64,000 bases of DNA from Gemmata sp. (GTDB lineage Bacteria > Planctomycetota > Planctomycetia > Gemmatales > Gemmataceae): assembly GCA_025055115.1 (NCBI GenBank), contig JANWYJ010000002.1, forward strand, positions 1 through 64,000, given 5' to 3'. Made by a program: the position numbers and the translations under genes. The notes under the pieces are model-generated. The model had not been told where the DNA came from and did not search any database. It was given only the letters and a program-made list of their open reading frames with translations. Numbering within the stretch: the stretch's first letter is position 1; each line of letters opens with the position of its first letter. Shown one piece after another: positions 7,058 through 64,000 of the stretch.

Positions 7058-8583
7058 GCGTTATTGGTGTTGAACTTGATGTCACCGCCAATACCACCGC
7101 GAAGGTTGGGGTTGATCGGCCGATTGGCCATCGCCTCTTCCGCAGCCCGCAATGCCGCTTCATGTTCTGCTTGCTCGGCAGCTTCCTCCGCTTCTAATTG
7201 CTCTTGCGCGATGCGTTTGAGGCTCAGCGAAATACGACGCGCCGTCGGGTCGACGCTGAGAACTTCGACAACCACCGGTTGCCCTTCCGTGACAATATCA
7301 CGCACACGACGGACCCGCTGCGGGGCCAACTCGGAGATATGAATCAACCCTTCAACACCCGGCTCCAATTCCACGAAGGCTCCGAAGTCTGTCAGACGTG
7401 TGACTTTGCCACTGATGCGTGCCCCGGGCTTGACCCGTTGCGCAAACTCCTCCACGGGGTTGGTTGTCAGTTTCCTCATCGACAAGCTGATTTTTCGCGT
7501 CGCAGGGTCGAGACGATTGATGAGAACCTCGACTTCCTGGCCCACTTGGACAAACTGGCTCAGATCGTTGACGCGCTGCCAAGAAAACTCGGACGCTGGA
7601 ATGAGGCCATCCGCACCCCCCAAATCGACAAAAGCACCAAACGGCTTGACACTCCGGACAATGCCCCGTCGGATTTGCCCCTCCTGGACATTTTGCCAGA
7701 ACTCGTCGGCCTTCTGTTGTTTTTCACGCTCTAACACCGCACGGCGGCTGACGATCAAGTTCCGCTCGGCGGGGTTCACTTCCATGACCATGACCTTCAA
7801 GCGCTGATTGACGAACGAACTGATATCATCGACGCGGTAAAGGTCCAGTTGACTGGCCGGCAGGAAACCTTTGATTCCACTCACTTCGACCGTCAGACCG
7901 GTTTTGTTCTTATTCGTGCCTGTGACACGAGCTTCCACGATCAGTCCCGGTGTGACCTGGGACCAATCTTGCACCGGTTGTGCCGCCCCTTCGCGTGTCA
8001 GAATCAAAAGGCCATTGGCGGCGTCGTAGTGGTCGATCTCGAACTCCACCGATTCGCCGATGGCTGGTTTGCGTCCTTCAAACTGTTGCAGTGGGAGAAC
8101 ACCTTGAGTGCGCCCTCCGGGAACTTCGATGAAGACATCGTGGCCATGAATGCCAACCACCACGCCGACGCGGCGACCACTAGTGGCTTTGAGCGGCTGG
8201 GGTTTCTGAACGGTTTCAGCTTGAGCCACGGTGCTCTCGACGTCGAAGCCGCGCATGGCCTCCGCCAGTTCTGCTTCGATTTGTGCGTCCAGTTCGCGGT
8301 TGTTCGGTTTCATCGCTCCAAAGGTGAGCGAATCGAGTTGCGGTGGAGCGCCGCCGGGGTTATAGGGTTTGTCCCTGCGCTGCGGGCGATCCGAGCGTGG
8401 CAAGCCGCGTGTGGAGCTGCCGAACGTGCGTCCTGGCAAGGGTGGGCGCGGTGGCACCCGAGGTGCCGCTGGTGGCCCTGAGACCGCGGCCGGTCCTTCC
8501 GTGGCAGGCGACGGGGGGGGAGCGGTCTCAGCTGGGACCGTGGGTGGCGAGGTCGGTTCTGCAGCGGGGTTATCGGCGTTCAT
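7054..8583 (-). CDS. S1-domain RNA-binding protein (ribosomal protein S1-like)
   Basis: The 509-residue protein carries four S1 (OB-fold) RNA-binding domains at about residues 137-197, 212-282, 302-371 and 387-457. The third and fourth have the classical VKPFGAFVDL and LTDFGAFVEL signatures. The first 95 residues are Pro/Ala-rich and probably disordered. The C-terminus is an Ala/Glu-rich helix ending in a Gly/Asn tail. Typical bacterial S1 has six domains, and four-domain forms are known; it could be the ribosomal S1 or a separate RNA-binding paralogue acting in translation or mRNA turnover. It is a single-gene unit divergent from the flippase-like gene. A 3' segment containing its TGA is partly duplicated downstream (7003-7021 and 7039-7057). 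Confidence 0.85.
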   Translation of the reverse strand: MNADNPAAEPTSPPTVPAETAPPPSPATEGPAAVSGPPAAPRVPPRPPLPGRTFGSSTRGLPRSDRPQRRDKPYNPGGAPPQLDSLTFGAMKPNNRELDAQIEAELAEAMRGFDVESTVAQAETVQKPQPLKATSGRRVGVVVGIHGHDVFIEVPGGRTQGVLPLQQFEGRKPAIGESVEFEIDHYDAANGLLILTREGAAQPVQDWSQVTPGLIVEARVTGTNKNKTGLTVEVSGIKGFLPASQLDLYRVDDISSFVNQRLKVMVMEVNPAERNLIVSRRAVLEREKQQKADEFWQNVQEGQIRRGIVRSVKPFGAFVDLGGADGLIPASEFSWQRVNDLSQFVQVGQEVEVLINRLDPATRKISLSMRKLTTNPVEEFAQRVKPGARISGKVTRLTDFGAFVELEPGVEGLIHISELAPQRVRRVRDIVTEGQPVVVEVLSVDPTARRISLSLKRIAQEQLEAEEAAEQAEHEAALRAAEEAMANRPINPNLRGGIGGDIKFNTNNA

Positions 8584-51255: not shown

Positions 51256-54009
51256 TTAGCGTTGTTGATTGAGCCGTGCCAGCACTTCGTCCATCAGTTC
51301 GGGACCCGACATCCGAAAAGCCGCCTCGTGGGGGCAGGCTTCCACGCAGAACGGTTCTTCGCCCCTGCACAGGTCGCAGTTGACGGCCCGCCGAGCTGCC
51401 ATCAAGTGCGGATGGCCATGGTCGTATGCGGTCGCCGCGGGGTTGGGGATTGCCCGCGGCACCATGTGAATAGCCCCGTAGGGGCAATTCCGCTCGCACA
51501 GCCCGCAGCCGATGCAATGATTCTCGATGATCACTTCCAGATGGTTGCCATGCCGGTGAATGGCATCAACAGGGCAACCCTCCATACAGTACGGGTTGTG
51601 ACAGGAGCGGCAGGAGGTCGCCACGAGGAAATCGCCAAAGCGTAAGCCTTCCCGCAGCAGTCGGGCGTTGCCGTCGTGGGACTCGGCACAAGCCCGGGTA
51701 CACTCATCGCAGCGGGTGCAGCTTGTTAAGTCGAGAACCAACAAACGCTGGCCCTGATAGAGACCCTGACGAACATATTCGCGCAGCAACCCGGGCGGTG
51801 GCTGGCCCTGAACCCCAGGCACCGCCACGCGTGGGGTCGAGCGTAGGTTTTCCCGCAGTTTGGGGAAGGCATCGCACAATCGCCGAAAGACAGGCCCTGG
51901 TACGCGAACGATCTCGACGGGGTCCAAGGCCGCTACGGAGGCAGTGCGGACGCCGGGCCGATCCGACAGCAACGCGGTTTCGCCAAAGTAATCCCCAGCC
52001 GACAGCAAACGGTAAACCTGCTCGCCTCCCCCCGCTTGCGTGAAAACTTTCACCGTGCCCAGGCGGATGATGTAAAACGCGGCGGCGGTGTCGCCCTCGG
52101 CGACGATGATTTCCCCCGCGGCAACGCGGCGAAACTCCGCCCCCTTGCCGTCGACACGCTCGCTGAGCAGGAACGTAACCGCTTGCTCTCGTTCAGCGGC
52201 ATCAAGTAATGCAAAGATACGACCACTGCGGACACATGTTTGAATGGCCCGGAACGAGTACATCTCCTCAATATCACTGCGCGCGGATTCGGCCCGCTGC
52301 ATCATATCTAACAAGTTGCGTGTCACTTCATAAACGATGACAGGTCCGCGACGGTTGGGATGGCGAACAGCCAGCGGCCGACCATGTTCATCCAAGGCCA
52401 GTTCCAACTGGGGGTTGTCGGGTTCGGCGACACCGATGACGGTGGCCGTGCGGGGCCGCTGGGTCAGGCAGGTCATTTCCCCCAGAACCAATTCGGTACC
52501 GGTGGCCACACGCAACAGTTGTCCGTAGTCGGTGGTGGTTGCCGTTTCTGTGCGACCCAAGAGGCGTTCGAAGAAACCTTTTTTCCGCGGCGGCGTGGAA
52601 CCGCGGGAGTAGAGTTCAAATTGACCGGTGCCTTGGAGCAGAAAAGCCGTATTGCCATATTCACCTTCCCGGCAGAGCACTTTGCGTTCGCCCGGTGGAA
52701 TGACCCAACGGCGCACCGAACCTTCGTTCCACTTCAAATACGAGTATGGTATCGAACGAAAGGGAAAAATGACTCGGGGGCCCCGTGTGGGGCTGTCGTA
52801 GGCCAACCAGATGTCGCGCATTTCATCGGCGGTGAGGAAATCCGAGCCGGAGGGGAACGACGTATTGGGATTGACGGGAATTTGCTCGGGCGAGTCGGGC
52901 CAGGCCCGGGGTTGCACCCGTCGTCGCAGTGACAACGCCCCCGTGGGACAACTGTTCATGCATTCGCCACATTGAACACAACTCGATTGCCCCATCAACT
53001 CATCGAGATCGAAGCTGATGCGAGTACCATAGCCTTTGCCGGTGTGACCGATCACCTTAAACGGCTTCACCTCGGCACAGGCGCGCACACATCGGTCGCA
53101 CAAAATGCAGCGGTCGTGATCGACGACAACTGTTCGCGACGAATAGGGGTAGGCGTGGTCGATCTGCCGGTTCCACTCAACCCAAGCCGTATAGGCCGCG
53201 GCCCGTTGTTCTGGCTCGATGGGTGTCTGAACAATCTCCAACGGGAAGCGGCGCGACTTGGGATGCACCGCGGCCGGATTATTCCGACTGGGCGAATCCG
53301 GCGTGCGGCGCACGCACGCCCGAACAGTCTCCGGGCGGACTCCCACGGACTGGGCGACGGCAAGCAATTCGTCGTCGTAGCGTTTGGCGCTGCCTATCGG
53401 TGGGTAATAATGATCGGCCAGAAGCAATTCCGCCAGCATCCGCACCGCGTTATTCACTTCGTCGGCGGCCCGTTCGACCACGCGGAAATCGGCCTTGTCG
53501 CGGGTCTGCGGGTTGTAACCATCAACGCCGGCTCGGGTGGTGACAACCATGTTCGTTTCCACGCGGTGCTGACAGGCTGGCACCAACTTCCGTCCGGGGG
53601 TGAGTTTGCCGCGTTTCATGGTCGAGACGTGCACCGAGCACATCCGGCAGACCGCCACAGGGGAAACGTGGCGCTGATGGCACAGGATGGGAATCCGGCT
53701 CCGCAAGTCGTCTTCGGTCCAAAGGCCTTGTTCCACCAATCGGACGGCGGCATCGTGGATGGTGGTTGTGCGGGGAATGAGCTGGCCTTTAGCATCCCGC
53801 AGGGGATTGCCTTGAGCATCGGTTTTGGGAACAGCCCGTGGCACCCGGATGCTATAGCCGTCAATCACAATGTCCACAAACTGTTCAAAACGCTGCAGCG
53901 TTTCTTTTTCCCGACGAATGAGAACGTCGTTCTCATCGCGGGCAAAGAGAGACTCTTCCTCACGCCCAAGAAGGTCCAGATCAATATCGGGATTGGTGAA
54001 TGCCGGCAT
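51256..54009 (-). CDS. HoxU/NuoG-like iron-sulfur protein fused to two cNMP-binding-like domains and a four-cluster ferredoxin
   Basis: The 917-residue protein starts at ATG 54009. An N-terminal 2Fe-2S domain (four Cys from ILCHQRH to CRMC and PACQH, about residues 112-150) resembles NuoG/HoxU. The following His-Cys cluster region has no Cys ligands (LLLADHYYPP). A two-cluster ferredoxin module follows at about 310-370 (CILCDRCVRAC and CVQCGECMNSCP). Two cyclic-nucleotide-binding-like folds come next, the second with GETALLSDRPGVRTASV (about residues 640-740). The C-terminal 180 residues are a DmsB/HybA-like module with about 16 Cys. Cytoplasmic. It lies 50 bases downstream of the NuoEF-like gene, so it probably receives electrons from it. 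Whether cNMP binds is unknown. Confidence 0.8.
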   Translation of the reverse strand: MPAFTNPDIDLDLLGREEESLFARDENDVLIRREKETLQRFEQFVDIVIDGYSIRVPRAVPKTDAQGNPLRDAKGQLIPRTTTIHDAAVRLVEQGLWTEDDLRSRIPILCHQRHVSPVAVCRMCSVHVSTMKRGKLTPGRKLVPACQHRVETNMVVTTRAGVDGYNPQTRDKADFRVVERAADEVNNAVRMLAELLLADHYYPPIGSAKRYDDELLAVAQSVGVRPETVRACVRRTPDSPSRNNPAAVHPKSRRFPLEIVQTPIEPEQRAAAYTAWVEWNRQIDHAYPYSSRTVVVDHDRCILCDRCVRACAEVKPFKVIGHTGKGYGTRISFDLDELMGQSSCVQCGECMNSCPTGALSLRRRVQPRAWPDSPEQIPVNPNTSFPSGSDFLTADEMRDIWLAYDSPTRGPRVIFPFRSIPYSYLKWNEGSVRRWVIPPGERKVLCREGEYGNTAFLLQGTGQFELYSRGSTPPRKKGFFERLLGRTETATTTDYGQLLRVATGTELVLGEMTCLTQRPRTATVIGVAEPDNPQLELALDEHGRPLAVRHPNRRGPVIVYEVTRNLLDMMQRAESARSDIEEMYSFRAIQTCVRSGRIFALLDAAEREQAVTFLLSERVDGKGAEFRRVAAGEIIVAEGDTAAAFYIIRLGTVKVFTQAGGGEQVYRLLSAGDYFGETALLSDRPGVRTASVAALDPVEIVRVPGPVFRRLCDAFPKLRENLRSTPRVAVPGVQGQPPPGLLREYVRQGLYQGQRLLVLDLTSCTRCDECTRACAESHDGNARLLREGLRFGDFLVATSCRSCHNPYCMEGCPVDAIHRHGNHLEVIIENHCIGCGLCERNCPYGAIHMVPRAIPNPAATAYDHGHPHLMAARRAVNCDLCRGEEPFCVEACPHEAAFRMSGPELMDEVLARLNQQR

Positions 54010-54059
54010 AACGCCCCCATGGTGCCCCAATAAGCGGTCGTGGAATGGCCACGACCGTT

Positions 54060-56156
54060 TCAACTCCGGCTAACTTCTGCTTCGCCTGTGGGCGGGCGGA
54101 GCAAATCGTCGGGGAAGTACGTCAGTGCAGTGGCCAAGGGGATTGGGGCGACGTAGCCCAATCCACAGATGGACGTCAGTTGTAATGTGCGGTACAGGTC
54201 CCGAACATCGTTCGCCAACCGTTCGGCCTCTGCCCCGGTTCGAGGTTGACCCGCATTGCGGCGTTGCAGCAACTCCGTGCCGATTTGCACCAGTTTTTGC
54301 GAGCCGATCCGGCATGGCACACACTTGCCGCACGATTCGTTGCGGAAAAATTCCGTGAAGTTGACCGCTTGCTCGAGAATATCCACCTGGCCCGCGTAAA
54401 CAATTATGGCAGCACCGAGCATCGGTTCTACCGGCAAGCGGAAGGCGCTATTCATATTGCGGAAAAAAACCAGATCGAGGGGCAGTTCGAGCACATCCAG
54501 CTCTTTGGCTCCCACCGGTAGGTGGGTGCGGAGAAACCAGTCCAAGAACGCGGCATCGGCAGCCGAGCGTTCGGCGATTTTGCCGATGGCTTCGGCCCGT
54601 TTGCGTTCATCGAACTTCGGATCTACGGGCAGTTTGGCCGGCAACAGCCCCCCCGAGGGACCGGAGGTGGCCACCGCGCGCAGCGGGCCGTTGATGATTC
54701 CGCCACAGTAACGGGCATCGGTCAGCAGTTCGCGCAAAGGTAGACCAATGGGTACCTCGTAGACGCCCGGACGGGCAACATCGCCACTGACGGAAAAGAG
54801 TCGACGCCCCCCCCAGCGGGCCGTAGCTGGCGGTGGCGGCCGCCAGCCGCCACTTTCGTATTTATCCCCCCCAAAAAGCACAATCGCGGGGGTCCATGCG
54901 AGCGTTTCAACATTGTTGACGACGGTGGGTTTGTCTCGAAAACCGTTGGTGGTCAATTCGGGGGGGCGGTTTCGCGGTTGCCCCCGGCGATCTTCCATCG
55001 CTTCAATCAGGGCCGACTGTTCTCCGCAGATATACCCGCCTGGGCTTTCAAAAACCTCCACGGGAAAGTTGCGGTGCGAGTCGAAGATGTTGTCGCCACA
55101 GGCTCCCAGTCGCTCAGCACGCCGGATTTCTTGACGGACGGCCTCAATTTGCTCGTGATATTCATGCCGGATGAAAATATAGCCGGCCGTTGCACCGGTC
55201 ATCAAGCCGGCGAGGATCACCCCCTCCACGACCAAATGGGGCATGCGTAGCAGCAATTCGCGATCTTTGAAGGTCCCCGGTTCGCTTTCATCGCCGTTAC
55301 ACACAATGTATTTTTCGCTGACTTCCAGGCGTGCGTCGGTATCGCCCGAGCTGGCCCGCCAAACATCCAACCATTTCTGATAGGCCAAGGCCCCGGCCCC
55401 TCCCATGCCTAACAGGTTCGCTTTTTTCAACTCGACGAGCATGGGATGCCACTTCTGGATGTAGTTTTCTAATTCCTGGCCGGTCAGTTCGCGTGGCGGC
55501 GGCAGCAGGGGTCGGCCGAGGTTCTTCAAATAGTCCGTGAAGCGACGCACAGCGCGATAATCGCGGGGCCACTTCTGGCGACCGTAAATGTCCAGGGACC
55601 AGCCGGCGGCTTCTAAGACCGGTTCATCTCCCGGACCGACCACCGGCTGGCTGTAACCGCGGTTGAGATTAGTGTGGGGGAGGTAGCCCGCATCGGTATC
55701 CGGTGCGGGGGGGTCTTCATCCGCGGCTAATCGGCGCAAAACTCCTTCCAAGAACGGCTGATCGCGCTGGCAATAAACCCATGCGTGTTCCCCGGGCGGC
55801 ATCGGTCGCTTTTCCACCCACACCGCGGGGGCACGATCACAGCGGCCCAAGCACGATACCCCCTCGACACAGATTGTCTGCCCCGTCTGTTGAGTCAGTT
55901 GTTGCGCGACAACTGGAAGGCCGTGGCGGTTGTCCAACAATTGAGCCGCGCCGCGCAAGTGGCAGGTCGCATCCCGACACACCCGCAGAACGATCTTCGC
56001 GGGGTTGGTGCGTTCGAGAATGAAGGCGGGGAAATAACTGCTGACTTCCTCAATGCGATGGAGGGGCACGCCGCTTTCATCGGCCAGCTTTTTCAGCTCG
56101 GCATCAGGGAGAAAGCCGTAACGATTCTGAATTTCACGCAAACGTTGGACAATCAT
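54060..56156 (-). CDS. NAD(P)H dehydrogenase subunit: fused NuoE-NuoF (HoxF-like)
   Basis: The 698-residue protein starts at ATG 56156; upstream residues of the open frame belong to the decahaem gene in another frame. The first 150 residues are NuoE-like with four Cys for a 2Fe-2S centre (CRDATC and CLGRC). NuoF-like sequence follows, with the FMN/NADH sites LLGMGGAGALAYQKW, GDESEPGTFKDRELL and GGYICGEQSALIEAMEDRRGQPRNRPP, and the 4Fe-4S site ESCGKCVPCRIGS with ICGLG. The enzyme would take hydride from NAD(P)H and send electrons through Fe-S clusters to the partner encoded downstream. It is the cytoplasmic entry point of the cluster. Confidence 0.9.
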   Translation of the reverse strand: MIVQRLREIQNRYGFLPDAELKKLADESGVPLHRIEEVSSYFPAFILERTNPAKIVLRVCRDATCHLRGAAQLLDNRHGLPVVAQQLTQQTGQTICVEGVSCLGRCDRAPAVWVEKRPMPPGEHAWVYCQRDQPFLEGVLRRLAADEDPPAPDTDAGYLPHTNLNRGYSQPVVGPGDEPVLEAAGWSLDIYGRQKWPRDYRAVRRFTDYLKNLGRPLLPPPRELTGQELENYIQKWHPMLVELKKANLLGMGGAGALAYQKWLDVWRASSGDTDARLEVSEKYIVCNGDESEPGTFKDRELLLRMPHLVVEGVILAGLMTGATAGYIFIRHEYHEQIEAVRQEIRRAERLGACGDNIFDSHRNFPVEVFESPGGYICGEQSALIEAMEDRRGQPRNRPPELTTNGFRDKPTVVNNVETLAWTPAIVLFGGDKYESGGWRPPPPATARWGGRRLFSVSGDVARPGVYEVPIGLPLRELLTDARYCGGIINGPLRAVATSGPSGGLLPAKLPVDPKFDERKRAEAIGKIAERSAADAAFLDWFLRTHLPVGAKELDVLELPLDLVFFRNMNSAFRLPVEPMLGAAIIVYAGQVDILEQAVNFTEFFRNESCGKCVPCRIGSQKLVQIGTELLQRRNAGQPRTGAEAERLANDVRDLYRTLQLTSICGLGYVAPIPLATALTYFPDDLLRPPTGEAEVSRS

Positions 56157-56177
56157 AGCCGTTTTCTTTCCGTTCGC

Positions 56178-56223
56178 CCTTGACCCCCAACGCCTTCGGG
56201 GGGAACGCTTCCGGGGGCCAAGG
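56178..56223 (-). other. Intercistronic RNA hairpin
   Basis: Minus-strand CCTTGGCCCCC pairs with GGGGGTCAAGG (11 bp, one G-U) around a 24-base loop with a small inner stem. It sits in the 80-base gap between the decahaem and NuoEF-like genes. No T run follows, so it is not a strong terminator; it could tune downstream expression or stabilise mRNA. Confidence 0.5.
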
Positions 56224-56236
56224 ATGTTGGCGGGCG

Positions 56237-57883
56237 TTACATACCGCGGAGCCAATCGGCGATGTCCCGCGGATTTTTCGGGAATCGCAGGGGCGAACCG
56301 CGACCTTGTAGGGGAAAATCGCCGTGGTGGTAGTTGTGGCAATCGGTGCAATTGTGCCGGACCCCACCGCCCGGAATGGTGGACCCATCCGGCAGTTGCA
56401 CACGTGTTTGGGCGGGGGAATGGCAACTGCGGCACGAGTCGATCCCCAATATGGCCACTGGCTCGGGCTGATTGGCTTCCATCGGCGTGATTTCCCGCCC
56501 TTGGGTGCCCGGATGACACGCAGCACAGCTTGCCCCCCGATGCGCTGCGTGATTGAACTTGGCATGAACCAACCAGACCGTGCGATCCGGCACCGGAACA
56601 ATCCGGTATTCTGACGGGTGGCTAGGGTCGCCGATGGTTTTGTGGCACTTTGTGCAACCGTTTGCACCACGCAGGAGCAGCCCTTCCGCTCGTTGCGCCA
56701 GTTCGTTGGCCAGAGCCTCCAGTGACGCGGCTGAGGAAGGGGGGCGCGCTGAGTCCAGCCGGCCGCCGGGTTCCAGAGGTTCTTTCAACGCCGGATGGCC
56801 ACCTTCAATCAGCTCTTTCACATAGCCCGCCTTGAGAAGGGAGCGCAGTTGCCCGGGTTGGACCCGGTGCGGTACATCGAAGCGTGGCACGATGAACTTC
56901 TGGTCGCCGCTTGTGACCTGACCTTCCATCGCAGTGGTGGGGTGGCAGGCTCGGCAGTGAAGGTCATAATTGATGGGCAAAAAGTAGGCTCCAGCCGCCC
57001 GCGCAGGCAGTAGCGAACGGGTTGGTGCCCCCATGGACTCGAGGGTCGTTTTGGCTTTCTCAAATTCCTTGGTGCCAATGCCTGAATCCAATTGGTGACA
57101 CGAAGCACAATCCAGTTGCACCAGATCGGTATCGCTTTGGCCAGGCTTGCGGTAGCGTGCGGCGATTTCAGGACCGTTCCACTGCTGGAGCCGGGCGAGG
57201 GTCATGGCTTCTTTGCCGTTTGGAGTGTAGGTTTGCCCGGGATTCATGTGAACCGCGTGGCTGAAGGTGAGGGTTCGGGGTTTCGTCGCAATGTTCAGGG
57301 ACCGGAATTCGGGATGATCGTTGACAAAGTGGGTCACGGAATTCTCATATGGCGGCTGCGCCCGCGATTTCGCCGGATCGAACCATCGGGCCAAATCCTT
57401 ATGACAGCGGGTACAATCGGCATCGGGTAAGCGGACCAACGAGTGCAGCCGCCCACGATGGTCGTGATGGCAGTTCGAGCAGCGGTTGTGGATGGCCTGA
57501 GCCGCATCGGTCGCGGAATCGTGATGTCCGAATGGCGGATGGTCCGCCCCTGCGTGGCATTTGCTGCAAGTAAAATCGTGCCAGCGATCGCGGACATTGA
57601 GAATGTTGCCGCTCCAGGCATCTTTCCAGGAAAAACTGGTATGACAGGCCGCACAATTGTCGTCGAAGGCCGCGTGGGGATTGGTCAGGGGGCCGTGCGT
57701 GTGAGCGTAAGCGGCTTGGCTCGACCGTGTGACATCCACGGCGGCCCAGGCGCCCGCGGCAACCAAGGCCATGACAGCGAGGGTGTATTTTCCGCGGCGC
57801 AGGCGATCTGGGTTGCGGAAGTAGCCGCGTCGTCCCGTATAGCGATCCGATAAGTCTCGACTTGGTGACCGGGGCATACCCAT
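56237..57883 (-). CDS. Decahaem cytochrome c with N-terminal membrane anchor
   Basis: The 548-residue protein has ten CXXCH sites: CAACH, CSKCH, CSNCH, CTRCH, CASCH, CRACH, CTKCH, CAACH, CRSCH and CTDCH. A single hydrophobic helix near residues 35-55 (YTLAVMALVAAGAWAAVDV) acts as signal anchor, so the haems face the periplasm. ATG 57883 or 57877 is chosen (MGMPRSP); the longer frame overlaps the cytochrome b gene. Extra His residues (HHDHRG, HAVHMN, FNHAAHRG) can serve as distal ligands, as in NrfH/NapC-like carriers and Mtr-type conduits. It lies 83 bases downstream of the cytochrome b gene, so it likely receives electrons from it or returns them to it. Confidence 0.85.
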   Translation of the reverse strand: MGMPRSPSRDLSDRYTGRRGYFRNPDRLRRGKYTLAVMALVAAGAWAAVDVTRSSQAAYAHTHGPLTNPHAAFDDNCAACHTSFSWKDAWSGNILNVRDRWHDFTCSKCHAGADHPPFGHHDSATDAAQAIHNRCSNCHHDHRGRLHSLVRLPDADCTRCHKDLARWFDPAKSRAQPPYENSVTHFVNDHPEFRSLNIATKPRTLTFSHAVHMNPGQTYTPNGKEAMTLARLQQWNGPEIAARYRKPGQSDTDLVQLDCASCHQLDSGIGTKEFEKAKTTLESMGAPTRSLLPARAAGAYFLPINYDLHCRACHPTTAMEGQVTSGDQKFIVPRFDVPHRVQPGQLRSLLKAGYVKELIEGGHPALKEPLEPGGRLDSARPPSSAASLEALANELAQRAEGLLLRGANGCTKCHKTIGDPSHPSEYRIVPVPDRTVWLVHAKFNHAAHRGASCAACHPGTQGREITPMEANQPEPVAILGIDSCRSCHSPAQTRVQLPDGSTIPGGGVRHNCTDCHNYHHGDFPLQGRGSPLRFPKNPRDIADWLRGM

Positions 57884-57953
57884 TCCCCACGCAAGTACAA
57901 TTTCCCCACGCAAGTATAATCCGTCACAACTTCCGAATCCGTCACAACTTCCG
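57883..57953. repeat. Two pairs of tandem repeats in front of the decahaem gene
   Basis: TTCCCCACGCAAGTA occurs at 57883-57897 and 57902-57916 (period 19). AATCCGTCACAACTTCCG occurs at 57918-57935 and 57936-57953 (period 18). They occupy the gap between the cytochrome b and decahaem genes. Confidence 0.9.
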
Positions 57954-57966
57954 CGCAAAATAAAGG

Positions 57967-58929
57967 TTACCAGAACTTCAACGCCCGGTAGGCGTGCAGC
58001 AGCATCAAGCCGGTCATCGTGACCGACAGTGGCAGATGCAGCAATAACCAATTATGTAACCAGAAATGCAACCGTTCTTGCTCATCCCACCGGCGGCGCA
58101 ATTCCGCTAATTCTTGCAACCGGTCGAGGACTGGACGAGCCGCCGGTGGCACGGCTTCGCGCAGTCGGCCAAACCGTTGTTGGGCGTCGGAAGGGATTGC
58201 CAGCAACGACCGCGACGAGATTCCAGACTCCAGGTAGGGAACCAATTCCCGATCGCGAAAAGCCACCAGTTCGGCCGCCAGCGGCCCGACCACAACCGGT
58301 TCAGAAGTTTCGGCTTCTGGTGGCACTGTCACCAATGTGGCAATCAACCGTCCGGCCTCTTCCGCATGGTATTGACCCAAACGGCTGATTTGGGAAGCGA
58401 TCGATTCGCCCGGTATGTCGTGCAGGATTTTCTCCGGAAGCCATTGTTGCATAATGAGGCCCCAAATCCCGCTGGCGGTGACCAACAGAAAGAGCATCAT
58501 CACCGTGGCTGGCAAAGGGCCGCCCCAACCGAATCCGGCATGCAACAAGATCACCGGCAAAGCGAGCAATCCCATCCACACATGCCAGCGCATCCAAACC
58601 CGCGTGCTACCTAACCGCCTGCTACGCAACCACTTACGCGGCAAGATGAGCATCTCAAAAACGACGATTGCCCCCCCCAGAACGCCACAGGCGACACCGA
58701 AGCCACTGCTGGGCTGGGGTGGCCACTCCCACAAGCCCGCCGCCGCCCCTGCCGCGGCCACGAGGATCACCCCGAAAGTGATGCCCACAGTCGAGAAGAC
58801 GATGGCCAGTACACGGTCGCGCACCGATTTCGTCTTGCCCCAAAGCACAGGCCACTCCGCCGGGAAAAGAAAGTGGATGAAGAAGTCTTGTGCGGGATAG
58901 TAACTCACTATTACGAACTGGTCAATCAA
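57967..58929 (-). CDS. Cytochrome b-like membrane protein
   Basis: The 320-residue protein has about five membrane segments. Two helices have paired His spaced HX13H: WHVWMGLLALPVILLHAGF near residue 115 and HLPLSVTMTGLMLLHAYRAL near residue 300, a pattern fitting b-haem ligation. The loop of about 120 residues between the last helices is charged and soluble. The ATG at 58929 is used; a GTG seven codons later is an alternative. The gene is first in a minus-strand operon with the decahaem, NuoEF-like and iron-sulfur genes. It could move electrons between quinone or cytoplasmic carriers and the periplasmic haems. Confidence 0.75.
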   Translation of the reverse strand: MIDQFVIVSYYPAQDFFIHFLFPAEWPVLWGKTKSVRDRVLAIVFSTVGITFGVILVAAAGAAAGLWEWPPQPSSGFGVACGVLGGAIVVFEMLILPRKWLRSRRLGSTRVWMRWHVWMGLLALPVILLHAGFGWGGPLPATVMMLFLLVTASGIWGLIMQQWLPEKILHDIPGESIASQISRLGQYHAEEAGRLIATLVTVPPEAETSEPVVVGPLAAELVAFRDRELVPYLESGISSRSLLAIPSDAQQRFGRLREAVPPAARPVLDRLQELAELRRRWDEQERLHFWLHNWLLLHLPLSVTMTGLMLLHAYRALKFW

Positions 58930-59262
58930 TCAGCCCCGCTCCAGTGCGGGAATTTCGCGCCAAAAATGATGGATGATCTCAGTCAGACCCATAGAGTCGT
59001 CCATCAGGTTGTCGGTACCATCGGTGAAATCATCGCAAAAATCATCCTCACAAGTTGAAGAACTTCAACTTGGCTGGAACGTTGACGGTGCCATCGGTGA
59101 AATCATCGCAAAAATCATCCTCACGGCCTAGAAACGCTTGCATTCACTGACAAAAAGCTCGAACATAAGGTACGATTTTCCATACTCCAGCAAAGAACGG
59201 CTTGTCGGGAAGAGAACCTGGCGCTTTCCACCGTGGCCGCTGGGGTCCAGCATGTTCGCTTT
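58930..59262. promoter_or_regulatory. Divergent intergenic region with repeats and a palindrome
   Basis: The gap separates the divergent cytochrome b operon and the pentahaem operon, so it must carry both promoters. A perfect 34-bp repeat (CCATCGGTGAAATCATCGCA and onward to CCTCAC) lies at 59018-59051 and 59091-59124. Between them, 59052-59071 form a 9-2-9 inverted repeat (AAGTTGAAG/CTTCAACTT). Such symmetry between divergent operons may be an operator for a shared regulator. This is inference. Confidence 0.5.
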
Positions 59263-60717
59263 ATGAACCCAATCGGCAAGATCATCCTGTTGGCCTTGAT
59301 GGGCTTCTTCGCAACCGGTTTGTTCCTCTCTCTTTATGGAAAATCACAACCGGTCACTGTGGTCTTGCCAGCAGCAAAGTCACTCCGAGATGCGCCGGTA
59401 GGGCCTATGCCCCATCAGCCAGTGGGGATGGCCGGGTGCCTGGGCGCAGCCTGCCATGGTGGGCCAGCCGAGCGAACGTTGGCCCGCCAATTCGACGAGC
59501 ACACGTGGCAAAGCTCGGGCAGTTGCTGGGCCGCAGCCGACCCTCACAGTACCGCCTACAGCCTTCTGACCGATCAGCCCCTGCGGCCGGTTCGTGTCAC
59601 GGCTCAGCAGATTATGGAACGCTACGCACCCGGGAAAAAAGCGACGGAGGAAGTGCGCTGTTTAGCCTGCCACACGAACCCGACTCTGGCACGGCCCGAG
59701 TTCCTTCGCGATGCCCAGGCCGACCTATTCCGACGAGAGGGGGTCGGTTGTGAAGCCTGTCACGGCAATGCGAGTGGTTGGATCAACAGCCATACCACTT
59801 GGAACGGCGATCGGTCACAAGTTTATGCCCAAACCGGTATGACACCCCTTTTCGATCTTGGCGAAAGGGCCATGACATGCTTGGGTTGTCATGTCGGTGC
59901 CCCCGCGGAAGCGGACCGGGGGCTGCCGGTGCGCGACATGAACCACGATATGATTGCTGCCGGGCATCCGCGCTTGAATTTCGACTTTGCGGAGTATCTG
60001 CGCCGCTTACCGCGGCATTGGCACGAGAAGGATCGCCCCACCAATGCCCCCCGAATACTGAATCCGGCCAAAGTGTGGTATGTGGGCCGTTATGCTCATG
60101 CCGAAGCCGCTTGCCGGTTGTTGGCCGATCGTGCGCAACGTTCCGCGGACGACCCACAAACCCCATGGCCGGAGTTTGCCGAATTCGACTGCGCGTCGTG
60201 TCATCACCATCTGCATATTTCGGATCGTACCGAACGCTCTTCCGATTGGCGGAAATCGGAGCAGTACCTCGCGGGCCGCCGATTGGGAGCACCCCGCTGG
60301 CAGCTTCTCTGGCCCGTTGGCACGGCTCCGGGCTTGGCCCTGCCGCAGCCAGGGGAGTCCCCGTTAGCCGCGGTTGCTCAAATCATGGAAACCGCCCCCC
60401 GACCGCGTGCCAGTGTGGTTCACCCCATGGCGATACAGGCGGCGCAATTATTACGCAACCGACGGATCGCGCTGGTTGCAACCCCTGACACCGATGTGCA
60501 GCGCACAGTGCAACCATACCTGGCTTCAGGCGGGAAACTTCTGCCAGACTGGGATAGCGCCCAGCAACTGTATTATGGGTTAGCGGCCTTCGACCGCGCA
60601 GAAGGCGATTATTCTGAGCAACTGTTGAAAACCTACCAATCGGCACTTGCTGCGTTCCGGAACAACGATTGGAATGAAGTGGAAAAGGCCCTGGAGGCGA
60701 TACGAAAAAGCAAGTGA
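59263..60717 (+). CDS. Pentahaem cytochrome c (c554-like), first of three paralogues
   Basis: The 484-residue protein starts at ATG 59263 (MNPIGKIILLALMGFFATG), with a signal anchor at about residues 5-25. Five c-haem sites are visible. The first is CLGAACH, a CX4CH spacing, and the others are CLACH, CEACH, CLGCH and CASCH. The motif DMIAAGHPRLNFDF after the fourth haem is shared with its neighbours. It is a periplasmic electron carrier or oxidoreductase, similar in pattern to cytochrome c554-type proteins of planctomycetes. Its stop TGA overlaps the next start by four bases (GTGA), so translation is coupled. Confidence 0.85.
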   Translation: MNPIGKIILLALMGFFATGLFLSLYGKSQPVTVVLPAAKSLRDAPVGPMPHQPVGMAGCLGAACHGGPAERTLARQFDEHTWQSSGSCWAAADPHSTAYSLLTDQPLRPVRVTAQQIMERYAPGKKATEEVRCLACHTNPTLARPEFLRDAQADLFRREGVGCEACHGNASGWINSHTTWNGDRSQVYAQTGMTPLFDLGERAMTCLGCHVGAPAEADRGLPVRDMNHDMIAAGHPRLNFDFAEYLRRLPRHWHEKDRPTNAPRILNPAKVWYVGRYAHAEAACRLLADRAQRSADDPQTPWPEFAEFDCASCHHHLHISDRTERSSDWRKSEQYLAGRRLGAPRWQLLWPVGTAPGLALPQPGESPLAAVAQIMETAPRPRASVVHPMAIQAAQLLRNRRIALVATPDTDVQRTVQPYLASGGKLLPDWDSAQQLYYGLAAFDRAEGDYSEQLLKTYQSALAAFRNNDWNEVEKALEAIRKSK

Positions 60718-62297
60718 GGGTCGATTCCCGCAGGGATGTGTTTTCCCCAACACCGCGAGATGGCACCGTGCGCACTCTTCTGCTCGTAGCGGTTATTGTG
60801 GGTAGTTGCACCGTCGCGGGGGTATTCAACCCGGCCCGTTCACAACCGGGGGATGGATCATCCCCTCGCTTGACTCAGAGTGTTCCATCTTCGTCTCCTG
60901 TTCTCTACGGCTTGGGGGAGAGTCCTTTCGCGCCGCGTCCGTCCACATCCTGTGCAGCCGCATCATGTCATGGCGGCGGCCAGGTGGGCAAGGTCGGTAG
61001 TGAACATTCGTCGTGGGCAGCCGAGGTCTTCCCCTCGGGGCCAAGCGACCCCCACAGCCGAGCGTACCAGGTGCTTTTCAACCCCGTTTCCGTGGAAATG
61101 GCAAAAAAGCTGAACCTGGGCGAAGCCCACCGGGCGGAACGGTGTCTCAAATGCCATGCGGTGCTGACCCATGAAGAACCCGACGTGCGCGCAGCCATTC
61201 TGGCCGAAGGAGTCGGTTGTAGTGCCTGTCATGGTCCGGCGGAAAAATGGCTCAGCGTACACTATCTGCCAGAATGGCAGACGCTATCCTCGCGCGATAA
61301 GTGGCTGAAGTACGGCTTCATTCCCACTAAGAACCTGGTCGCTCGGACGCTGAATTGTGCAAGCTGCCACATGGGTGACTCCAGCCGGGATGTCAACCAC
61401 GACCTCTACGCGGCGGGGCATCCGCGGATCACTTTTGAAGCAGCCCGGCTTCACTATCATCCCGACTATCGCCACCATTGGACCGAGAAAACGCCACAGC
61501 CGGATTTCGAGATTCGCTTGTGGATTGTGGGTCAAGCGGCCGCCCTGCGTGCCGCCACCGATCTGCTGCGTGCACGTGCCGAGCGGGCATTGGCCCACAC
61601 GCCGGAGTCAGCATGGCCCGAGTTTGCCGGATATAGTTGTTATGCCTGCCATCAGCGGGTGGGCGAAGGGGCGGTTCGCAACAGCGTCTCGGCTATGCCC
61701 CGGCCGTTGGGAGTTGCTGGTTGGGAAGTGTTGGCGAATACTGGGGTGGCAATCGCCGCACAGTATTGCAGCACGGCGTACCCCGGTCTCACTCCACCGA
61801 CTTTGACGGAAGTTCAGAGATTACGGAAATTGATGGACGGTCCACGCCCCCCTTCGCCGGCCACAGTGCGACAGCAAGCCACGAAAGCTCTAGGGGAATT
61901 GGATGCATGGCTGGCAGAGCTTCAAACCGCTGAAGACGGCAAACGGCAACCGGTGCCCTCGGGAACCACCGAGCAATTGCTCCATGCCCTGGCCAATAAC
62001 GCTCTGACGCGCAGCGCGGGAGGTGAAACCCTCCTGGCCGATCACGATTGGGACGCCCTGACCGCCAACTATCTGGGCTGCGCTGCGATGTATCATGCCC
62101 GCGGAGGGAGAATGCCATCGTGGCAGAAACCTTTGGATTCTCTCCGCGAACAACTGCGATTCCCCGCTCTGACGAGCGGGCAATGGAATAGCCCCGCGGA
62201 TTTCACCGTCCAAAAACTGAACACTCTTCGCGAGAACTTCATTCTTCTGCGGAACATGTCCGCGCCCTCCGCCACGCCGGAAGGGGGAAAGAAATGA
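60714..62297 (+). CDS. Pentahaem cytochrome c (c554-like), second paralogue
   Basis: The roughly 527-residue protein starts at GTG 60714, overlapping the previous stop. A GTG at 60768 (MRTLLLVAVIVGSC) directly before the signal peptide is a plausible alternative. The haem sites are CAAASCH (again CX4CH), CLKCH, CSACH, CASCH and CYACH. The conserved NHDLYAAGHPRITFEA follows haem four. The WPEFAGYSCYACH segment matches WPEFAEFDCASCH of the first paralogue, so the two are duplicates. It is a periplasmic electron-transfer protein. Its TGA overlaps the ATG of the third gene (ATGA). Confidence 0.85.
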   Translation: MRVDSRRDVFSPTPRDGTVRTLLLVAVIVGSCTVAGVFNPARSQPGDGSSPRLTQSVPSSSPVLYGLGESPFAPRPSTSCAAASCHGGGQVGKVGSEHSSWAAEVFPSGPSDPHSRAYQVLFNPVSVEMAKKLNLGEAHRAERCLKCHAVLTHEEPDVRAAILAEGVGCSACHGPAEKWLSVHYLPEWQTLSSRDKWLKYGFIPTKNLVARTLNCASCHMGDSSRDVNHDLYAAGHPRITFEAARLHYHPDYRHHWTEKTPQPDFEIRLWIVGQAAALRAATDLLRARAERALAHTPESAWPEFAGYSCYACHQRVGEGAVRNSVSAMPRPLGVAGWEVLANTGVAIAAQYCSTAYPGLTPPTLTEVQRLRKLMDGPRPPSPATVRQQATKALGELDAWLAELQTAEDGKRQPVPSGTTEQLLHALANNALTRSAGGETLLADHDWDALTANYLGCAAMYHARGGRMPSWQKPLDSLREQLRFPALTSGQWNSPADFTVQKLNTLRENFILLRNMSAPSATPEGGKK

Positions 62298-64000
62298 CCA
62301 GCCAATCCATTCGATCTCTGCGCCGATTCACCCTTCTGGTGATCATCTTCGGAGCCAGCGTGTTGGCTCTGTGGTCGGAATCCTACCGACCCCATGTGTG
62401 TGCCGCAGCCCAAGCATCGAAGGAGAAAGCCTACCCCCTACCCACCGCGGAGGAGGTGAAAAGTCTGCAACTGATCGGCGCGGCCGAGTGCAAAGTGTGT
62501 CATAGCGAAGCCGAACCGAATAAGGTCGATCTCTACAAGGAAACGCTCGGCTACGAGTTCATCCGGCTGTGGGAAAACAAAGTTTGGGCCGTTCATGATC
62601 TCCATTCGACCGCCTACAAGAACCTGCTGACCCAGCGCACCGCCAATCCGGCCAAAAACGAGGTTCCCAACAAAACTGCCCAGCGCATGGAAGACAATCT
62701 CCGCCGCTACAAAGGAGAGAACTACACGGTCGCCACCGATGTGGGTTGTTTGGCGTGCCACGCCAGTGTTCTGCGACCCATCCCTCAAGTTCCCCCCGAC
62801 CAATGGACGGTGAAATCCTTCATCACCAGCGATGGTGTCGGCTGCGAAATGTGCCACGGCCATGGCTCACTGTACAAAACACGACACCGCGACTCCCGGA
62901 TCGACCCCGACAACGCCCCCGAGGGAGCCATTCGCATGGTCGATTGGCGCGAGGCCGATCCGAAGATCAAATCCGCGTGGGGTTTAGTGAATCTTCGCGA
63001 CCACAGCACAGCCGTGGCCCAGTGTGCCTCGTGTCATATTGGGAATCTCAAAGAAGGTCGCTTTGTCACGCACGAATGGTATGCCGCAGGCCATCCCCCC
63101 TTGCCTCCCTTCGATCTGGTCGCTTTCACGCGCGAGCAACCCCGCCACTGGGGGCTGCCAGCCGAGTTACCGTACTTCCAAAAGTTGTTGAAAAAAGACC
63201 CCAAGAAAGCGGAAGCCATCTTCCACATCCGCGCCGAGGAATCGCATGGGGCGCGGCGATTCGCGGAAGCAACCCTGGCCACCTTGCGGGAAGCGGTGAA
63301 CCTGGCCTATCAACTGGCCGAAAAAGGCCACGACGAAGGGCTGGATTTCGCCGCCTTCGATTGTGCGTCGTGCCACCACGACTTGAAATACCCCAGCGAT
63401 CGCCAAATGCGGGGGTATGTCGGGAAGCCGGGACGACCGCTGTTCCGCCCCGCAGCCTTTGCCCTCGCCAAGATGGTCGTCGAACACGCCGCGCAAATGA
63501 AGGGTGCGCCGGATGCCTTGAAAAATGCCCCCCAGCAACTGTCCGCAGCCGAACGGCAGATGCTCGAGGCTTTCGCCACCAAATCACTTGGCGACCCCGC
63601 CAAAATCATGGCCGCCGCCGAGAACCTCCGGAAGTGGTGCAATGAAACGATTACGCAACTGGCGAGTGTACGCTACACACCCGATGAAACGAAAAAGCTT
63701 CTGGCCAAAGTGATTGACGCCACCCAACAACCCCTCGCCGACCCAGAAATCGCTCAACTGTACACCTGGTCTTTCGAAACCCTCGTCTTCGATCAGACTC
63801 CACCCCGCCAAGATGCGCAAGGCCAACTCATTCCTCCCCCCAGTGTGACGGCGATTCGTAGCAAACTCCAGAACATCGTCGTCACGCGGCTGCGACCAGA
63901 TTCAAAGTTCGACTATGAAGTTCCCGGTTCGATGACGACGCCGGAAAGTCTGCAACCCGTCGATGCCCGTCTTGGCACCCGCATGCAGATTTTCAATGCC
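62294..64000 (+). CDS. Pentahaem cytochrome c, third paralogue, cut by the window end
   Basis: The frame from ATG 62294 is open to the right edge, giving at least 569 residues. A signal anchor (LLVIIFGASVLALW) lies near residues 15-30. The haem sites are CKVCH, CLACH, CEMCH, CASCH and CASCH, all with CX2CH spacing, so the CX4CH found in its neighbours is replaced. The YAAGHPPLPPFD motif and LDFAAFDCASCHHDL show the same family. It is longer than the other two, with an extra helical C-terminal part. It completes the coupled three-gene cytochrome array. Confidence 0.85.
   Translation, partial: MTSQSIRSLRRFTLLVIIFGASVLALWSESYRPHVCAAAQASKEKAYPLPTAEEVKSLQLIGAAECKVCHSEAEPNKVDLYKETLGYEFIRLWENKVWAVHDLHSTAYKNLLTQRTANPAKNEVPNKTAQRMEDNLRRYKGENYTVATDVGCLACHASVLRPIPQVPPDQWTVKSFITSDGVGCEMCHGHGSLYKTRHRDSRIDPDNAPEGAIRMVDWREADPKIKSAWGLVNLRDHSTAVAQCASCHIGNLKEGRFVTHEWYAAGHPPLPPFDLVAFTREQPRHWGLPAELPYFQKLLKKDPKKAEAIFHIRAEESHGARRFAEATLATLREAVNLAYQLAEKGHDEGLDFAAFDCASCHHDLKYPSDRQMRGYVGKPGRPLFRPAAFALAKMVVEHAAQMKGAPDALKNAPQQLSAAERQMLEAFATKSLGDPAKIMAAAENLRKWCNETITQLASVRYTPDETKKLLAKVIDATQQPLADPEIAQLYTWSFETLVFDQTPPRQDAQGQLIPPPSVTAIRSKLQNIVVTRLRPDSKFDYEVPGSMTTPESLQPVDARLGTRMQIFNA

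Follow-up and report, generated by a model that had tools for sequence, protein, structure and literature searches.

Gene content of the locus

The stretch of DNA analysed here (the window) comprises 64,000 bp of Gemmata sp., a planctomycete (Gemmataceae; positions 1 to 64,000 of the forward strand of contig JANWYJ010000002.1, assembly GCA_025055115.1). Between nt 51256 and 58929 its minus strand carries genes for a membrane cytochrome b, a decahaem c-type cytochrome, a fused NuoE-NuoF diaphorase (NuoEF) and an iron-sulfur (Fe-S) protein, in that order (Table 1). A sequence-only reading had described these four genes and their order, and both are real, but its limits were too narrow, as they omitted the divergent multihaem genes (59233-64057) and a decahaem/LVIVD gene just beyond the window edge (64144-68343), all of which are parts of the same system. 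Start codons were set by homologue comparison and make all four genes shorter than the mechanically called open reading frames (ORFs): the revised starts are ATG codons at 57883 or 57877 (decahaem), 56156 (NuoEF) and 54009 (Fe-S protein), and cytochrome b probably begins at ~58848. With these starts the co-directional genes lie 83, 80 and 50 bp apart, a spacing that fits an operon.

Table 1. Coordinates of the genes, motifs and domains of the locus (window numbering unless stated otherwise)
Feature	Coordinates	Strand	Basis or remark
Membrane cytochrome b	57967..58929	-	ORF span; likely start ~58848
Decahaem c-type cytochrome, N-terminal transmembrane (TM) anchor, 10 CXXCH	56237..57883	-	Pfam, homologues
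NuoE-NuoF fusion (diaphorase): NuoE [2Fe-2S], flavin mononucleotide (FMN)/NAD(P)H domain, SLBB, one [4Fe-4S]	54060..56156	-	Pfam/NCBIfam
NuoEF Cys and FMN motifs	55962-55979, 55839-55856, 55392-55409, 55275-55298, 54312-54338	-	
Fe-S protein: NuoG-like [2Fe-2S] + 2x[4Fe-4S], two cyclic-nucleotide-binding (CNB) domains, 4x[4Fe-4S] DmsB/HydN-like module	51256..54009	-	
NuoG-like [2Fe-2S] cysteines C128, C139, C142, C164	53560..53682	-	invariant in A2
Two [4Fe-4S] motifs, HoxU/[FeFe]-hydrogenase-like	52948..53109	-	
CNB domain 1; phosphate-binding cassette GEMTCLTQRPR at 52450-52482	52294..52776	-	
CNB domain 2; phosphate-binding cassette GETALLSDRPGVR at 51946-51984	51844..52221	-	Pfam cNMP_binding 8.3e-24
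Four [4Fe-4S] motifs, C-terminal output module	51334..51720	-	cluster Cys in 56/56 homologues
Pentahaem c554-like cytochrome a, one CX4CH + four CXXCH	59233..60717	+	Pfam Cytochrome_C554; divergent, conserved neighbour
Pentahaem c554-like cytochrome b, one CX4CH + four CXXCH	60714..62297	+	Pfam Cytochrome_C554; conserved neighbour
Pentahaem c554-like cytochrome c	62294..64000, continues past window to contig 64057	+	haem motifs, conserved neighbour
LVIVD decahaem protein, 1,400 aa, ten haem motifs	same contig 64144-68343 (L115:4144-8343)	-	just beyond window edge
Intergenic region between divergent operons	58930..59232	.	candidate operator

Fe-S protein and NuoE-NuoF fusion

The Fe-S protein (935 aa) consists of a NuoG-like half, two CNB domains and a C-terminal half with four [4Fe-4S] motifs, and the cluster motifs of both halves are all intact. 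The CNB domains, probably the most unusual part of the system, are the regulatory domains mentioned in the sequence-only reading, which gave no mechanism for them. Both keep the cassette Glu and Arg predicted to hold cyclic AMP or cyclic GMP (cAMP, cGMP), in 56 of 56 homologues for domain 1 and in 54 of 56 for each residue of domain 2. Domain 2 matches the cGMP- and cAMP-dependent kinases PKG and PKA by sequence (phmmer), and the modelled tandem fits the cAMP-bound PKA regulatory subunit over ~310 columns (Foldseek, E 1.1e-14). The AlphaFold2 (AF2) model of the whole protein has a mean predicted local distance difference test score (pLDDT) of 67.8, with most of the CNB parts at 75-90 and weaker loops. 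In one planctomycete locus (L102:8018-11259) a split or a frameshift spreads the Fe-S protein over two frames, with Fe-S matches at 7973 and 10600.

The [2Fe-2S] site of NuoE, the FMN motif and the [4Fe-4S] site of NuoF are likewise intact in the fusion protein, and its family keeps the FMN-binding residues. The NuoF part has a single [4Fe-4S] binding region (aa 718-806); the protein ends at residue 819 and has no C-terminal ferredoxin domain. The nucleotide pocket of the family departs from that of complex I, with GMGGAG[A/I/..] in place of GRGGAGFP, Gln for Glu in YICGE[E], and a KPPFP motif that lacks the Phe. Similar departures are seen in HydB, and bifurcating HydB chains are the nearest sequences in the PDB; since HydB shows such changes too, NuoEF may still use NADH. 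NADPH is also a possible substrate, and engineered variants of Escherichia coli NuoF (Morina et al. 2011) reportedly use it. The Glu-to-Gln change was rejected as proof of NADPH use, as the HydB of 8a6t has Ser at the aligned position, and it stays a lead. A separate NuoE/NuoF pair is encoded elsewhere in the genome (contig C50).

Membrane cytochrome b

Cytochrome b (320 aa) has five predicted TM helices. The HX13H cytochrome of the sequence-only reading proved to have two such pairs, H116/H130 (58540-58584) and H298/H312 (57994-58038), both invariant in 28 sequences, which would ligate two b haems in bis-His fashion. An AF2 model (pLDDT 86.6) places a helical domain of ~120 aa between TM4 and TM5. 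The loop between TM2 and TM3 has five Lys or Arg residues and the TM1-2 and TM3-4 loops have none, so that by the positive-inside rule the TM2-TM3 loop should be cytoplasmic. This in turn would put H116 and H298 on the cytoplasmic side, H130 and H312 on the periplasmic side, and the helical domain in the cytoplasm, where it is a likely docking site for the Fe-S protein; the predicted topology depends on one model and one rule.

Matches of this protein to DUF4405 and Ferric_reduct were weak (the latter in 7 of the 28 members, best E 0.013; Pfam), and Pfam annotation found no FAD/NAD(P)H dehydrogenase domain in the chain. Comparison of the model with known structures by Foldseek gave no significant match (best E 0.4), and the score against STEAP1 (Z 7.4) lies inside helical-bundle noise. 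Assignment by structure was dropped for these reasons, and no fold family is claimed.

Multihaem proteins and the intergenic region

Ten CXXCH motifs are present in the decahaem cytochrome of the window, as the sequence-only reading had counted, and in every full-length homologue. The protein matches Cytochrome_C7 and the Mtr II/IV domain in Pfam, shares a conserved N-terminus (MPRSPSRDLSDR) with its relatives, and has no match among PDB sequences. Upstream of its start, in the region 57885-57920, is a short tandem repeat, TACTTGCGTGGGGA.

The larger LVIVD decahaem protein carries LVIVD beta-propeller repeats at its C-terminal end and, along 1,200 aa, shares ~50% identity with homologues from other phyla, some of which (L094-L096) have lipoprotein-like N-termini. 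Mean column identity in a five-sequence alignment from two phyla is 63%, and the many invariant residues outside the haem sites suggest an enzyme. In two of the c554-like proteins (59233-62297) the first haem site is of the CX4CH rather than the CXXCH type (CLGAACH and CAAASCH).

The region between the divergent operons contains a 44-bp direct repeat (59008-59051 and 59081-59124), the copies of which flank a perfect 10-bp inverted repeat (59051-59072). This repeat cluster is a candidate operator.

Conservation and co-occurrence

The sequence-only reading had proposed looking for the same operon in other genomes. Genes for cytochrome b, the decahaem, NuoEF and the Fe-S protein recur together in Gemmataceae, in Chthoniobacterales (Verrucomicrobiota) and in one Riflebacteria genome, with divergent c554 genes. 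The order of the four is mostly kept, and in two loci (L038 and L027) it is rearranged with the set complete. Recurrence of an ordered gene set across three phyla, in bacteria from soil and water, is far beyond chance. In four Verrucomicrobiota genomes NuoEF and the Fe-S gene stand alone and cytochrome b lies elsewhere; in L116, L117 and L119 it has the decahaem as its neighbour, which was not called in L118. Named carriers include Gemmata sp. IIL30, Zavarzinella formosa DSM 19928 and Limnoglobus roseus PX52, so the system is open to experiment.

A smaller core is found in other Planctomycetota, some Verrucomicrobiota and Riflebacteria. It comprises cytochrome b, the decahaem and a CNB-containing Fe-S protein without the NuoG-like part, lacks NuoEF, and is often accompanied by c554 and LVIVD decahaem genes. 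Since the core also occurs without NuoEF, the diaphorase appears to be an optional NAD(P)H input. In a tree of the shared C-terminal Fe-S part, rooted at the midpoint, the NuoEF-bearing proteins form nearly one group (four changes; the exceptions include one truncated contig and one second copy). Addition of NuoEF to an older core is the simpler reading of this tree, short of proof. Adjoining one core that lacks NuoEF is a gene (L099:11010-12653) that combines an NDH-2-like pyridine nucleotide oxidoreductase with a CNB domain. It would be another NAD(P)H enzyme linked to CNB, and we count it in favour of the interpretation given below.

In a set of 292 planctomycete genomes, the Fe-S protein is present in each of the 21 that have a strong cytochrome b match and in 23 of the 27 with the LVIVD decahaem (~3.0 expected), although shared ancestry inflates the corresponding p-values. 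Three Cloacimonadota loci (L045-L047) were rejected as relatives, as they match only the shared NuoF/NuoG parts, and cytochrome b and the decahaem were not found there. The idea that the operon is a fragment of complex I or an assembly remnant was also discarded, because it persists in different phyla and a separate NuoE/NuoF is encoded in this genome.

Nucleotide cyclases near the Fe-S gene

Class III nucleotide cyclases lie near the Fe-S gene at ten loci, against 0.45 expected (Poisson 6.5e-11); with close relatives merged into five lineages the probability is ~1e-4. In Verrucomicrobiota these are CHASE2 cyclases and also cyclase-TPR proteins, and in planctomycetes they include a cyclase-FHA protein (L085), a cyclase-kinase (L102) and two further loci (L089 and L021). 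The cyclase-FHA and Fe-S genes share a strand; the former lies immediately upstream, and its end is separated from the Fe-S gene by some tens of bp. At five loci (L028, L030, L037, L040 and L044) a conserved cassette of a FecR protein, an unknown protein and a CHASE2 nucleotide cyclase is found directly 3' of the Fe-S gene.

A proposed gated electron conduit and its alternatives

Electron transfer between NAD(P)H and haems in the periplasm by way of the membrane, offered as a possibility by the sequence-only reading, is well supported by the anatomy of the proteins, their conserved ligands, gene order and co-occurrence. On balance we favour the view that the system is a quinone-independent conduit, gated by cyclic nucleotides, that would carry electrons from NAD(P)H to haems in the periplasm or at the cell surface; we infer its direction, its gating and its final acceptor. 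Electrons from NAD(P)H would enter at the FMN of NuoEF, as its conserved FMN and Fe-S motifs indicate, and would cross the NuoG-like [2Fe-2S] and [4Fe-4S] clusters to the four [4Fe-4S] clusters of the C-terminal half. Binding of cAMP or cGMP to the interposed CNB domains may join or separate the two halves electrically. The C-terminal half would dock on the cytoplasmic helical domain of cytochrome b, whose two putative b haems would span the membrane and pass electrons to the anchored decahaem, the pentahaem c554 proteins and the LVIVD decahaem. These proteins are associated with the system in the genomes, and the order in which they act, like the periplasmic or surface acceptor they serve, is presumed. 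Outward electron flow without a proton pump dissipates membrane potential, as it does in NADPH oxidases; a wire that lacked a gate would thus be expensive to the cell, and this cost would be a reason for the gate.

A more specific version, which we hold more tentatively, is that cAMP or cGMP acts directly as the switch of a transmembrane respiratory wire, opening or closing it through movement of the Fe-S halves, so that discharge of NAD(P)H to the outside could be turned on or off within seconds, and that NuoEF was added to an old core common to Planctomycetota, Verrucomicrobiota and Riflebacteria. Respiratory electron flow is generally taken to depend on substrates, redox state and gene expression, and we know of no description of cAMP or cGMP acting directly and allosterically on an electron pathway across a bacterial membrane. 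If correct, this would be a new means for a cell to turn respiration on and off, and would provide a role for the multihaem cytochromes of soil and freshwater bacteria that pass for plain aerobic heterotrophs, as well as for the cyclases and CNB proteins of these phyla.

Several observations weigh against a gated conduit. The named Gemmataceae loci, the window among them, have no cyclase close to the operon, and the only two class III cyclase matches in this genome are both away from it. Residues that hold NADH in complex I are missing from the NuoF pocket, confidence in the AF2 model of the Fe-S protein is low around the clusters, and the cytochrome b model has no significant structural match. 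The co-occurrence and cyclase statistics partly ignore shared ancestry, and the case is built from genes and models. Finally, the host has complex I and two haem-copper oxidases. Given these, the conduit is not its main respiratory chain, and looks like an overflow or special-purpose path.

The strongest competing explanation, though on the unlikely side, differs at the output end and is compatible with gating: the LVIVD decahaem or the c554 proteins would reduce one specific periplasmic compound, for which the operon supplies NAD(P)H. The column identity of the LVIVD decahaem is very high for a mere wire, and its invariant non-haem residues point the same way, but the haem motifs found are all of the usual binding type and there is no match to a known reductase family.

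Less probable is that the same conduit is ungated, its CNB domains being structural or binding another ligand, and that flow is set by substrate and transcription. This would agree with the lack of an adjoining cyclase in the named Gemmataceae loci and with the kinetoplastid PKA-R homologues, which PDB titles call cAMP-independent and list as structures with guanosine or inosine. Against it stand the cassette Glu and Arg, which 54-56 of the 56 homologues retain in each domain, and the linkage of cyclases in several other lineages.

We consider it distinctly improbable that electrons flow inward, from a low-potential periplasmic or surface donor to NAD(P)+. NuoF-type diaphorases are reversible and multihaem chains conduct both ways, and the Glu-to-Gln change in the NuoF pocket would fit NADP(H); such flow, however, would have to overcome the membrane potential, the potentials of c-type haems usually lie above that of NAD(P)H, and the cultured carriers are heterotrophs. 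Flavin-based electron bifurcation by a Bfu-like complex, which the sequence-only reading had entertained and to which the nearness of NuoEF to HydB chains might point, is very hard to sustain, because BfuB is defined by five Fe-S clusters, with a C-terminal ferredoxin domain among their carriers (PMC9304861), and the NuoF part has one [4Fe-4S] and no such domain, so that clusters B2-B5 are missing; membership in the Bfu family was rejected on this cluster content.

Comparison with known systems

With the N-module of complex I (NuoEFG) and with HoxFU, the system has in common NuoE, NuoF and the N-terminal NuoG domains, with their FMN and cluster motifs. It differs in that two CNB domains and a 4x[4Fe-4S] module follow the NuoG-like part in one chain, and in its altered nucleotide pocket. 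Among the proteins of the operon and its neighbours, only NuoE/F and the N-terminal part of NuoG represent complex I (NuoB-D and NuoH-N, and with them quinone reduction and the proton-pumping membrane arm, are not in the operon), and no hydrogenase, such as the NiFe subunits of HoxEFUYH, was found among those annotated or in the recurring set of conserved neighbours. BfuABC complexes (HydABC, StnABC) likewise share NuoE-, NuoF- and NuoG-type modules, but here the clusters and domain described above are absent. By the features tested, the system is not complex I, Bfu or Hox.

Tandem CNB domains with intact Glu and Arg are shared with the PKA regulatory subunit and PKG, but are here placed inside an Fe-S electron wire and do not act on a kinase. 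Mtr/Pcc porin-cytochrome systems similarly have a periplasmic decahaem and further multihaem proteins; here, however, electrons from NAD(P)H would enter through a cytoplasmic Fe-S chain that contains CNB domains, and no match to the MtrB/PioB porin (PF11854) was found in this genome (98% complete), in which other porin types are possible. With no such porin found, extracellular transfer, as suggested by the sequence-only reading, is a possibility only.

The modules are all known individually and their combination is new to the sources searched, in which no family model, PDB entry or open-access paper (the literature covered) describing it was found. With NADPH oxidases and ferric reductases (FRD) the cytochrome shares HX13H-type pairs on two parallel TM helices and a path that would take electrons from inside to outside, with weak Pfam matches; it differs in having no FAD/NAD domain in the same chain, a role that would fall to NuoEF and the Fe-S protein. 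By analogy, and whatever the kinship of its cytochrome b, the system would resemble in its working an NADPH oxidase whose dehydrogenase is a separate protein and whose switch answers to a messenger.

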